NCBI GenBank assembly: GCA_002937525.1
Contig: PTKA01000004.1
Location: 1 to 13,085 of the forward strand
Source of the DNA: Alphaproteobacteria bacterium MarineAlpha10_Bin3
Lineage (GTDB): Bacteria; Pseudomonadota; Alphaproteobacteria; UBA8366; GCA-2717185
Direction: 5' to 3'
DNA: 13,085 nt
Below, in pieces: positions 3,132 to 13,085 of this stretch; the stretch's first letter is position 1; every line of letters begins with the position of its first letter. Both the position numbers and the translations under genes were made by a program. The notes under the pieces were generated by a model, which saw nothing but the letters and a program-made list of their open reading frames with translations, made no database searches and had not been told where the DNA came from.

Positions 3132-3268
3132 TGTGCGTTAAATATAATTCTAATGCCAAGCCGGTTCAGGTACTTTGAATACTATCTGAAACGTAGATAA
3201 ATCGCTACTGGGTATCCAGGGGTCTTTATCGCTCGTTTCCATGATATACAGTGAACGCTGGGCTCAAA

Positions 3269-3277
3269 AGAGGGGGG
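3269..3277 (+). promoter_or_regulatory. Ribosome binding site of the selenoprotein gene
   Basis: Purine run AGAGGGGGG just before ATG 3281; its GAGG core is 7 bases upstream. It favours ATG 3281 over the in-frame GTG at 3251, which has no such site. Confidence 0.6.
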
Positions 3278-3280
3278 ATC

Positions 3281-4153
3281 ATGTCAGTCGGCTATATCAA
3301 GGCCATCACCGAGCGTTACGAAAAACTCGGCTATGCCGCCTATCAATGGGTCCAGGCCAATGATCCGCCACCGTTCGCGCCGTTGCGCAAACCGCTCAAG
3401 GATTGCCGCATCGGCATGCTGTCGACATCGGGCGCCTATGTGGTCGGCCAGAAGGCATATTTTTATAAGGACGACACCTCGACCCGGACCATCGCGGCCA
3501 CGACCGACAAGCGACATATCCACTTCTCCCATCTCACCGAAAACTATCTTCCGGGCCCGCGGCGCGATCCGGGCTGCATTGTTCCGGTGGACGCCTTGCA
3601 GCGCCTGGCAGCGGAAAATGCAATCGGCGCGGTGGCCCCGGACGTAATTTCGTGCATGGGCGCGGTTTATTCGCAACGCCGGGTTCGCGAGGAACTCGCG
3701 CCGTCATTGCTGGAGACATTTCAAAGCCAGCATGTGGACGCCGTGCTTCTGGTGCCGATGTGACCGGTTTGCCACCAGACCGTGTGTCTGGTCGCCCGTC
3801 ACCTGGAAGCCGCCGGCATCGCGACGATATGTCTGGGCAGCGCGCTCGATATCTTGCAGTCGGGCAACCCGCCGCGCGGCGCCTTCACCGATTTTCCGCT
3901 CGGCCATACCGCCGGCCCGCCGGACGATCCAGAGCAGCAATACCGCATTGTCCGCGATAGCTTGCGGGCGCTCGACTCGATTTCGACGCCCGGCGATATC
4001 CGCCATCTCAACGTCGCATGGCCCGGCGGCGATGCCTGGCGGATCGAGGCCGAGCGCGGCGACAGCAGTGACGAACGCTCGCCCCGCGATACCGAACCGC
4101 GCTATCAGACCGAACAAGACCGCGTCTTGGCGGCGGCAATGGCTGGAAACTGA
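3281..4153 (+). CDS. Selenoprotein of the glycine/sarcosine/betaine/proline reductase B family (UGA read as Sec)
   Basis: One 290-residue frame if the UGA at 3761-3763 is decoded as selenocysteine (Sec161). Family features lie on both sides of it. Upstream is an N-terminal region with MLSTSGAYV, then HIHFSHLTENYLP, VPVDALQRLAAENAIG and VDAVLLVPM. Downstream come PVCHQTVCLVARHLEAAGIA, a GSALDI block, and FTDFPLGHTAGPP, which resembles the family's TDFPLGNPCGKP. The UGA lies in a U-x-x-C motif (Sec161, Cys164), the redox site type of GrdB/PrdB-like proteins. A SECIS-like hairpin directly follows. GrdB and PrdB are dithiol-dependent reductases of glycine or D-proline; the substrate here is unknown. 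No grdA, grdE, prdA or sel genes are in the window, so the partner proteins and selenium machinery must be elsewhere. A naive call would stop at 3763 (160 residues). The alternative, a nonsense-mutated Cys homologue, is less likely given the hairpin. Confidence 0.88.
3761..3763 (+). other. In-frame UGA selenocysteine codon (Sec161)
   Basis: The single in-frame stop between two halves of one conserved protein, at the first position of a U-x-x-C motif where cysteine occurs in non-selenium homologues. It is TGA, not TAG or TAA, as recoding requires. Confidence 0.85.
3771..3795 (+). promoter_or_regulatory. Bacterial SECIS element (SelB-binding hairpin)
   Basis: ACCAGAC (3774-3780) pairs perfectly with GTCTGGT (3786-3792) around the five-base loop CGTGT. 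A C-C mismatch at 3773/3793 is followed by two more pairs (3772-3794, 3771-3795). The loop begins 18 nt after the UGA and has G at its second position. Both fit the known rules for bacterial SECIS elements: the apical loop lies a short distance downstream of the UGA and has G within its first two bases. The hairpin lies inside the coding sequence, as in E. coli fdhF. Confidence 0.82.
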
Positions 4154-4285: not shown

Positions 4286-4296
4286 TTGCGATGCAG
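4286..4296 (+). promoter_or_regulatory. PhaR-like operator, downstream copy
   Basis: TTGCGATGCAG also differs by one base from CTGC-N3-GCAG. It sits over the predicted transcription start, where a bound repressor would block initiation. With the copy at 4230-4240 it brackets the promoter. Confidence 0.3.
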
Positions 4297-4374
4297 CAAT
4301 ACCGGATTGCGCACCGCGTTACGAACAGATGTGGGAGTACGGCACGATGTCGAAAAAGACACAGGATACGTCGA

Positions 4375-4653
4375 ATGCCTCGGCCGCCATGGCAGGCGAG
4401 TGCGCTCTGCCTCGATGCCTATGGCCAGATTGGCGCGTCCTGTCTCGCTTATTTGCGGAATGCGACGGATCCTGGCATGACGGCGGTTCTGGCGGCAACG
4501 TCGATTCACGAGGTCATGGACGTTCAGATCGATTGCGCGCAGCAGCGCTACGATGTTTTCATCGCCGAGGGTACGAAAAGTTCCGCGCTATCGATGCGTC
4601 GCGCGGCAGGTATATCGTGTTATATGATTGTCTTTCCCCTCGGGGCAAAATAA
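4375..4653 (+). CDS. Short phasin-like protein, start uncertain, possibly frameshifted
   Basis: Phasins coat polyhydroxyalkanoate granules. The frame ending at 4653 has a phasin-like core: ALCLDAYGQIGASCLAYL, then a helix with SIHEVMDVQIDCAQQRYDVF and IAEGTKSSALSMRRAA, matching the family pattern of a DVQ..YA...YD.F..E..K.S helix. As called, the protein is 92 residues with an AGGA at 4363-4366 before the ATG. However, ATG 4347, in another frame, has a better Shine-Dalgarno (GGGAG, 4333-4337) and a typical N-terminus, MSKKTQDTSNASAAMAG. It would join the phasin core if one base were skipped near 4390-4400. So either the gene starts at 4375 or it is a frameshifted phasin gene starting at 4347. 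The C-terminus (CYMIVFPLGAK) is short for the family. It is followed 42 bases later by clpS. Confidence 0.5.
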   Translation: MPRPPWQASALCLDAYGQIGASCLAYLRNATDPGMTAVLAATSIHEVMDVQIDCAQQRYDVFIAEGTKSSALSMRRAAGISCYMIVFPLGAK

Positions 4654-7646: not shown

Positions 7647-9443
7647 TTCAAGCGCGATGCCGATGCCGGTGTCAAAAATTTGGAACACATAGCCGTCATC
7701 CGGGCGGGACCAGGCTCTTATGGTGACTTCGCCGCTAGGCTGCGTGAATTTTATCGCGTTGGACAGGAGGTTGAGCAGGATTTGCTTGAACATGCGTTCG
7801 TTGGCGTATAGCGGACCAAGTTGGTTCGTAATCTCCGATTTTAGATTCACGCCGGCCGTCTTCGCGCTCCCGTTCAACAAATTCAGGCAGTCCCCGGCGA
7901 CCTTGAAAACATCAATGGCGACTTCGTGGAGTTCGGCCTCGTTCGCCTCGACCTTCGAGAGGTCGAGAATGTCGTTGATGAGTGCGAGCAGTTGGTTGCC
8001 GGCCGCGTTGATATCCTTTGCGTATTCAACATATTTCGGGATGTTGATCGGCCCGAATAACTGTCTATGGATTATATTCGAGAATCCGATGATGCCGTTC
8101 AAGGGCGTGCGTAACTCGTGGCTCATGTTGGCAAGGAACTCGGACTTGGCCAAGCTGGAAAACTTGGCATCTTCCTTGGCGTTGATTAACGCCACCTCTG
8201 CATTCATGCGCATAGTGATATCCGTGTCAGCCCCGCGATAGCCGTGATATTCTTCAGCCGCGTCGAATACCGGAACACCGCTGACGTTTATGTGGCGTTG
8301 TTTCCCATCGACGCCCGTAATCTCGTATTCCAGATTACTGAACGCCCGGTGCGCCTCCAGGTCTTCGAAATGTCGCCGCCATTTTTGCGGATTAGCTTGG
8401 ATATCGCGGTCCGAGATGAAATCCCGCCGGGTCTTGCCGATGACGGCTTCGGGTGCAACTTTCATCGCCTCGTAGAACCGATCGGAAATGTAGATAAATT
8501 TACTGTCCTTATCCGTTTCCCAGAACCAGTCCGATGCCACCGTGGCTACATCCCGGAACCGCTGTTCGCTGTTCCGCAGCGCTTTTTCCACCTGTTTGCG
8601 TTCGGCAAGCTCGTACTCCAGTTGCGCGGTGCGCATTTCGACCCTTTGTTCGAGCTGCGCGCGGGCTTCCTCGACCAATTGCAGCGCGCGCTCGGTCTTC
8701 TCCACCATGCGATTAAAGCTGGTGGCCAAATCGCCGAATTCGTCCTGGCTTTCGATGTCAATTCGGTGCGCCAGATTTCCATCGCCAATGATCTCGGTGC
8801 CGCGCACCAACGCACGTATGGGCATGACGATGCGTTGGGACAACATAAAGGCCGAACCGCATCCGACCAACAAAGCAATGGTGCCGGTCACGAGCAGCAA
8901 TAGGGTCGCCGTGGCGGTCGAGGCCTTCGCATCGGCTGCCGCGCGGATCATCTCGTCGTGGATCAAGGGTTGGATTTGGTCGTCCAGAATGCGGTCGATC
9001 TCCTTAAGGTCTGCCTCGAACCTCGCCAACTTCCCGCGCACCGAGTCGGTAATCGCGATGATCTCGTTTCCCGCCGCCACCACGTCACCGAAGGTCGTTG
9101 CAATCTGGTCGAGCCATTGCGTCTCGTCGACCGCCATGGCGGTTGCGCGATACCGCCTTTGGGCGCGTATGAAGCCGGCCTCCGAATCGGCGATCGCCCG
9201 CTTCAAGGCCGGATTGGGTCTCAGGATATAGCCTTCGATCGCGGCAAAGGCCCCAAATGCGTCGATTTCCATTTCGAGTGCGGCATAGCTCTTCGCCTGT
9301 GCGTCGGGCGCGGCACGGTCGATGGCGGGTTGGAGTTTGTCGTCGATCAGCGCGCGGATGGCGACGACGCCGTTTTGAAACACGCCAAGGTCGTTGAAAC
9401 GCAGCTTCGCCAACGCCGTAATCTCGTCGCCCAGGGTCTTACT
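7641..9443 (-). pseudogene. Sensor histidine kinase, main fragment (HAMP-PAS-HisKA-partial ATPase)
   Basis: The large remaining frame of a membrane-bound two-component sensor kinase, which would autophosphorylate and pass phosphate to an unidentified response regulator. Going leftwards: a helical periplasmic sensor domain (9443 to about 8920), a second membrane segment rich in Leu/Val (about 8840-8915), HAMP (about 8690-8840), a short coiled coil, PAS (about 8190-8560), HisKA with phosphoacceptor His at 8118-8120 in [11 protein letters not shown], and the ATPase N box NLLSNAIKF and G1 box FDTGIGI. It ends in tandem TAG codons at the 94-bp patch, lacking the ATP lid and G2 box, so it should not bind ATP properly. 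The 5' end is cut by a frameshift at 9441-9447. An ORF call might start it at ATG 9530, but the first residues there are out of frame with the real protein. Confidence 0.8.
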
Positions 9444-12426: not shown

Positions 12427-13085
12427 TCACTGGTATGTCGTCGCGCCGCCTTCGCCGACCACCACGAAGGGGGCACAGAACATGGGGTGGGCGAAGTGGT
12501 CCTTTCCCTCGGTCTCCATCATCGCCAGCATGGAACGGCGCAGGGCTTCGGCGCGGCCGATGTCAGGGTTATCGGCCATTTCTCCCAGCATGCCCGTGGT
12601 GATGGCCACGGCGGCCTCGGAGTTAACCGCCCAGTGGGAGACCAGCAGCGCCCGCGCCCCGGCGTAGAAGAACGCCTTGGCCATGCCCGACAGCCCCTCG
12701 GCTCCCAGCGTGCCGTCGGCGGCGGCGGTGTTGCAGGCCGACAGGATTACCCAGTCGGCATCGAGTTTGAGGGTGGCGATCTCGCTCGCCGTGAGCAGGC
12801 CGTCGTCGGCTTCCGTGCCGGTCTCGGGCGGGGTGAACACCAGCGCCGGTTCGCCCAGGCCGCTCAACTCGCCCGAAACCAGGCCGTGGGTGGCGAAGGC
12901 GAGGATGCGGTAGTCGGAGAGGTCCATGGAGCGCACCCGCGTCTCGGTGGCCCGCGCCTGTAAATAGATTGCCTCCTCACCGACCCCCTGGGCCGTCGCC
13001 AGGGCGATTAACTCGTCGGCGGTATCGGGAAGCCGGGGCAGTTCGCGCACCGCTTCTACGTCGGCCACCGCGCCGCGCGTGAACA
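12427..13085 (-). CDS. CHAT-domain (caspase-like) protein, C-terminal part (5' partial)
   Basis: The open frame reads through the right edge, so the gene is 5' partial. The visible part is a CHAT domain, a caspase/separase-fold peptidase often preceded by TPR repeats, which would lie outside the window. The catalytic pair is visible: His in ILAFATHG (codon 12886-12888) and Cys in WVILSACNTA (codon 12733-12735). The later GMAKAFFYAGARALLVSHW block and the end MFCAPFVVVGEG are also typical. A GTG at 13068 could pass as a start, but the upstream codons (FTRGAVADVEAV) continue the family pattern. Its tail faces the pilZ gene end-to-end with a 13-base gap. Targets are unknown. Confidence 0.88.
   Translation of the reverse strand, partial: FTRGAVADVEAVRELPRLPDTADELIALATAQGVGEEAIYLQARATETRVRSMDLSDYRILAFATHGLVSGELSGLGEPALVFTPPETGTEADDGLLTASEIATLKLDADWVILSACNTAAADGTLGAEGLSGMAKAFFYAGARALLVSHWAVNSEAAVAITTGMLGEMADNPDIGRAEALRRSMLAMMETEGKDHFAHPMFCAPFVVVGEGGATTYQ

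Follow-up and report, generated by a model that had tools for sequence, protein, structure and literature searches.

The window, by which we mean the whole stretch of 13,085 nucleotides analysed here, is contig C334 of a 2.3 Mb alphaproteobacterial assembly (our genome G000; 502 contigs, 64.33% complete). The gene of interest lies on its forward strand, opening with the ATG at 3281 and ending with the TGA at 4151-4153. The frame contains one internal stop only, the TGA at 3761-3763, and reading through it gives a product of 290 residues. These limits rest on a family match in one frame on both sides of the UGA and on homologues of equal length. The gene and the features in and around it are as follows.

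3281..4153, forward strand: PrdB-like gene, very probably encoding a selenoprotein; 290 codons including one selenocysteine (Sec) codon, plus stop
3270..3277, forward strand: Shine-Dalgarno-like G-rich stretch, GAGGGGGG, before ATG 3281; read from the sequence
3653..3655, forward strand: codon of Cys125, within S-C-M-G-x-x-Y-S-Q-R
3761..3763, forward strand: in-frame UGA, codon 161, read as Sec; Cys equivalents, and TGA in homologous loci
3770..3772, forward strand: TGC codon of Cys164, partner of Sec in U-x-x-C
3774..3792, forward strand: SECIS hairpin, stem 3774-3780 with 3786-3792 (7 bp), loop CGUGU 3781-3785
4034..4150, forward strand: conserved C-terminal tail, about residues 252-290, beyond the end of annotated PrdB

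The G-rich stretch at 3270-3277 looks like a ribosome-binding site, and an alternative GTG start at 3251 gives rise to a 170-residue form of the protein. The neighbours in the window are a D-Ala-D-Ala carboxypeptidase gene, a phasin fragment and clpS. Since this clpS is 81-87% identical to those of three congeners and of genomes G005 and G007, the contig fits the genome to which it is assigned. The phasin fragment is a short frame at 4291-4653 with a sub-threshold match to Phasin_2 (20.5 bits, cut-off 24.9); it looks frameshifted, as its likely start region sits in another frame. At 12427-13083 there is a gene for a CHAT-domain protein, its frame open at the contig end. No conserved neighbour that might hint at a substrate was found, none being common to all the loci compared.

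The two halves of the protein each match the PrdB profile TIGR04483 on their own, with E-values of 2.1e-17 for residues 1-160 and 7.2e-12 for the part after the UGA, and do so at consecutive profile positions. The sequence-only reading was therefore right to place both in one frame and one family. Its further expectations, that gene callers truncate the protein and that Cys homologues carry Cys at the first position of the motif, were borne out by a database search returning 1440 homologues, the best 120 of which underlie the protein counts given here. Among these 120, all 59 short homologues (160-172 residues, the window's own entry included) stop one residue before the UGA column, and in homologues of more than 200 residues (query excluded) the column is occupied by Cys in 60 of 61 and by Arg in 1 of 61. 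That full-length database proteins among the best 120 are Cys forms (one Arg) reflects the truncation of Sec forms in the database, and the sampling is uneven. One homologue, P0024, has Arg at the Sec position and keeps the second Cys.

At the DNA level, the codon at the Sec position is TGA in 102 of 109 loci and TGC or TGT in the other seven, the 109 being those of 126 loci whose alignment spans the codon, with some contigs counted twice; the family loci include 83 distinct UGA stretches. Two further family copies were found in G000, on contigs C167 and C9, at about 32% identity; both carry the UGA, followed by the same stem. Cys164, the partner of Sec in U-x-x-C, is invariant in alignments of 22, 58 and 10 rows, the last of which includes PrdB and GrdB. 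A UGA homologue with the hairpin, L018 (contig C253 of G008), reads Asp at the second Cys codon (U-P-L-D-H); it has a very long branch in the tree described below and is perhaps degenerate.

The hairpin begins 10 nt after the UGA. It was assessed in 78 of the 83 distinct UGA stretches, the five from L026-L030, which are longer and more distant GrdB-like genes, being excluded. Of the 546 stem cells, 97.4% pair, against 90.4% in shuffles, none of 500 reaching the observed value; with the stem partners slid out of register, at most 32.8% pair. Double-sided changes affect 52 cells, and both this count and the covariation score are higher than in any of the 500 shuffles. Neither the tally of pairs with double-sided changes (three of seven) nor that of further pair types (five) stands above the shuffles, 156 and 244 of the 500, respectively, reaching the same values. 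One pair joins the third base of a Gln codon to the first base of a Leu codon: CAG goes with CTG in 68 rows and CAA with TTG in 10, mixed combinations being absent. As both changes are silent in the protein, this points to selection on the RNA, although the relatedness of the rows is included in the count. In the small set of seven Cys loci the paired share of stem cells falls to 57.1%, and one particular pair is disrupted throughout. The stem is part of the fold predicted for the RNA of the window, the total fold energy being ordinary (z -1.49), and no Rfam family exceeded its gathering threshold in the window.

The selenium machinery was assessed in the genome itself and in its relatives. 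Of the genes that the sequence-only reading had marked for a search, selC and a partial selA were found, while selB and selD gave no match in the 64%-complete assembly. The tRNA-Sec has the anticodon TCA, and the selA match, which is over cut-off, runs to position 8467 of a contig that is 8470 bases long. In the congeners G001 and G003 both selB and selD are over cut-off (selD in all of G001-G003) and selB directly follows selA, so that the absence of selB from G000 can be explained by the contig break at selA. In a set of 59 genomes that includes our own, a UGA-bearing family match occurs in 23. We took as a sign of Sec competence either selB over cut-off or a tRNA-Sec scoring 67 bits or more, the line being drawn at a gap in the scores; by hand count one or other is present in 20 of the 23, compared with 2 of the 36 other genomes (G049 and G056). 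Genomes with Cys forms only (G013, G015 and G030) have neither selB nor a strong tRNA-Sec in any of the three cases. Neither was found in the UGA-bearing G002, G033 and G053, which are 77-88% complete; G002 does carry selA and selD.

Two other accounts of the in-frame UGA have to be set against these data. The gene might be a pseudogene or the product of a sequencing error, the UGA being a true nonsense change with residues 1-160 only, or nothing, made. The failure to find selB and selD in the incomplete assembly would suit such a view, but the genome does carry tRNA-Sec and selA, the hairpin covaries, and the UGA is common to separate database entries as well as to 102 of the 109 loci. Six of these entries, with an identity of 84-90% across residues 1-160, break off at the same point, which makes a sequencing error unlikely. 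Moreover, residues 162-240 show pN below pS against UGA homologues in all 37 comparisons, a number that includes duplicates; against the nearest orthologue, dN/dS is 0.14/0.96 for that region and, ahead of the UGA, 0.25/1.45. Constraint is looser over the last 50 residues, and some dS values are saturated. A decayed or misread gene is thus very improbable. Still less credible is a code in which the organism gives UGA the meaning Trp or some other standard amino acid. Any such code would trivially leave the frame open, but the PrdB-like, clpA, PilZ and CHAT genes of the window all terminate at TGA, the genome has a Sec-type tRNA with the matching anticodon, and Trp never occurs in the column among the longer homologues of the best 120. 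Taken with the Cys homologues, the TGA loci and the covarying hairpin, this upholds the proposal that the UGA is decoded as Sec, and the gene is very probably a selenoprotein gene.

Its family name is a different matter. The group first suggested, reductase B proteins of the glycine, sarcosine, betaine and proline types, was matched, with the refinement that among named families PrdB, not GrdB, comes closest and that the match lies below the PrdB cut-off. The whole protein scores 124.7 bits with TIGR04483 (E 3.9e-36, residues 26-243), the best of the named profiles; the cut-off is 300 and the annotated PrdB of Terrisporobacter scores 424.7, so that by score the window protein falls outside PrdB. 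The two share 32% identity, and Sec stands in the same alignment column in both, followed by x-x-C-H. The annotated PrdB stops at the column of residue 251 and is without the conserved tail, which is some 40 residues long and keeps W253 and R269 in every one of 58 aligned homologues. Cys125 is kept by nearly all close homologues, but PrdB and the more distant members L118 and P0062 have another residue there.

The resemblance to GrdB is weak. The Sec of the GrdB of G009, again a UGA codon, and the x-x-Cys that follows it align with those of the window protein, which at 290 residues differs from the GrdB models of 431-435 positions. The Pfam GRDB entry (PF07355), whose gathering score is 22, matches residues 95-158 only, at 23.4 bits, and TIGR01917 and TIGR01918 give 24.5 and 27.3 bits, below their cut-offs of 602.2 and 65.45. 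In the part of PMC10838667 available, GrdB-like genes are linked to fluoroacetate reduction. The FarB of Cloacibacillus described there offers a further likeness, being GrdB-like and a predicted Sec variant for another substrate; it differs in pairing with a GrdE-like subunit, FarE, in an anaerobe, where our own genome has no such subunit over cut-off.

Partner subunits are missing more widely. PrdA exceeds its cut-off in none of the 59 genomes, our own included, the sole match being a weak one in G009; in the control, an annotated prdB lies one gene away from prdA. GrdE-type subunits (PF09338) and GrdA are each over cut-off in one genome of the 59, again G009, with sub-threshold PF09338 matches in G022 and G031. 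PrdA-, GrdE- and GrdA-type partners are thus under cut-off in 58 of the 59, among them our 64%-complete genome, and PrdA is absent also from the orthologue-bearing G005 and G007, which are 92-93% complete. An unrecognised protein could substitute for the PrdA or GrdE subunit. In G009, contig C421 (locus L160) carries a UGA-containing GrdA, a UGA-containing GrdB, a GrdE-type subunit and a probable GrdC; this looks like a glycine reductase cluster, its gene naming being partly interpretive. Tandem pairs of GrdB-like genes, with frames of about 400-440 codons and one TGA each, were seen on contigs G011 C4, G016 C3, G019 C14, G028 C55 and G031 C24, in genomes without GrdE-type or GrdA genes over cut-off.

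A COX1-type oxidase is over cut-off in all 11 genomes searched, our own included. This suggests that a role in anaerobic fermentation is unlikely and that the PrdB-like protein operates in an aerobic setting, although an oxidase gene alone is no proof.

We therefore read the locus jointly as a UGA at 3761-3763 decoded as Sec and a product that acts as a stand-alone 290-residue PrdB-like oxidoreductase without PrdA or GrdE, and put the probability of this at about nine in ten. What was computed for it comprises the UGA, its Cys equivalents, the covarying hairpin, the tRNA-Sec, the partial selA and the partner genes missing from relatives; Sec insertion and the redox cycle are predicted. SelB and tRNA-Sec would decode the UGA, guided by the hairpin at 3774-3792. 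The Sec161 selenolate would then attack an electrophilic substrate, either by reductive cleavage of a C-X bond, the chemistry of the PrdB/GrdB group, or by reducing an S-, Se- or peroxide-type oxidant, and Cys164 would resolve the adduct as a selenenylsulfide, to be reduced in turn by thioredoxin- or glutathione-type donors. All this may proceed without a PrdA/GrdE subunit; the lack of one implies that the substrate is activated another way or is reactive by itself. The roles given to Sec161 and Cys164 follow the chemistry of PrdB and GrdB. That chemistry is in part set out in the available passages of PMC13188914 and PMC10838667. Fold relatives with a telling function were sought and none was found.

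Two other views of the function bear on this. Were the protein the true Sec subunit of D-proline reductase, acting with PrdA, its best profile and the shared Sec column of the annotated PrdB would be accounted for. Against that stand a score under half of the cut-off, a tail that PrdB is without, the absence of PrdA over cut-off from all the genomes and a neighbourhood that holds no prd genes, and we consider such an identity most unlikely. Somewhat less doubtful, and overlapping the stand-alone oxidoreductase reading as a more restricted form of it, is a protein whose main task is stress defence, by thiol peroxidase or disulfide reductase activity, and not the cleavage of C-X bonds. The gene stands alone, one Cys-type relative adjoins SelO, and U-x-x-C is a general redox motif. 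The motif is treated in that way also in the passages seen of PMC13188914 and PMC1088965. Yet the family kin are substrate-cleaving reductases, and conserved His, Arg and Asp positions in the 58-row alignment suggest a specific substrate pocket, so that stress defence as the main function seems possible rather than likely. A stand-alone Sec-x-x-Cys oxidoreductase remains the most likely prediction.

D-proline reductase (TIGR04483, UxxC) is a known selenoprotein, as the available parts of PMC13188914 and PMC9312934 state, and Sec-containing 'PrdB' in the sea is already catalogued as abundant. In the passages seen, the Sargasso Sea survey counted 42 Sec PrdB sequences (PMC1088965) and the GOS survey 235 (PMC2398784), both with the motif UxxC and under the name proline reductase; those passages mention no missing PrdA. 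Judged by their description, these sets very probably include the subfamily of the window gene. The portion of PMC8124441 that was accessible deals with selB and tRNA-Sec of alphaproteobacteria and never uses the word PrdB. Text on a PrdB without PrdA was not found in the literature searched, to which subscription papers are mostly external.

The name PrdB is probably wrong for this gene family. We lean, with less assurance than for the locus itself, towards a widespread PrdA-independent family of single-subunit selenoenzymes in oxygen-respiring bacteria, marked by the tail and catalysing an undescribed reaction, for which the 'proline reductase' label of the ocean surveys would be mistaken. 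As matters stand, the database version of the window protein is a fragment of 160 residues that lacks the redox centre, and its relatives bear the name of an enzyme of anaerobic amino-acid fermentation. If the protein is truly an orphan of this kind, an abundant environmental selenoprotein family is without a known substrate, and surveys that score it as proline reductase misread the use of selenium by environmental bacteria.

For the evolution of the family we built a quick tree from 89 Sec, 64 Cys and 1 Arg proteins (154 in all), masking the Sec residue and excluding identical rows as well as loci with scores below 100 bits. The Sec/Cys state changes at least eight times, five of these changes being forced by well supported branches; support is weak for 51 of the 151 inner branches, and very long branches lead to three rows. 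Sec forms come from contigs labelled Pseudomonadota, Actinomycetota, Chloroflexota and SAR324. Carriers include a named strain, Vineibacter terrae CC-CFT640 (L067). The direct orthologue is present in the sister-genus genomes G005, G007, G009 and G010 (62-69% identity); in the three congeners searched it was not found, only more distant copies being seen there. Near the four close orthologues L047, L048, L049 and L057 there is a histidine-ammonia-lyase-type gene, which does not occur in the window, and L049 and L057 have a urocanase nearby; these neighbours were checked with Pfam for L047 and L049 only. Finally, the loci L070, L071, L096 and L112 lie on MAG contigs titled Klebsiella pneumoniae or Bordetella parapertussis; the titles look wrong, since their genes group with environmental relatives on the tree.
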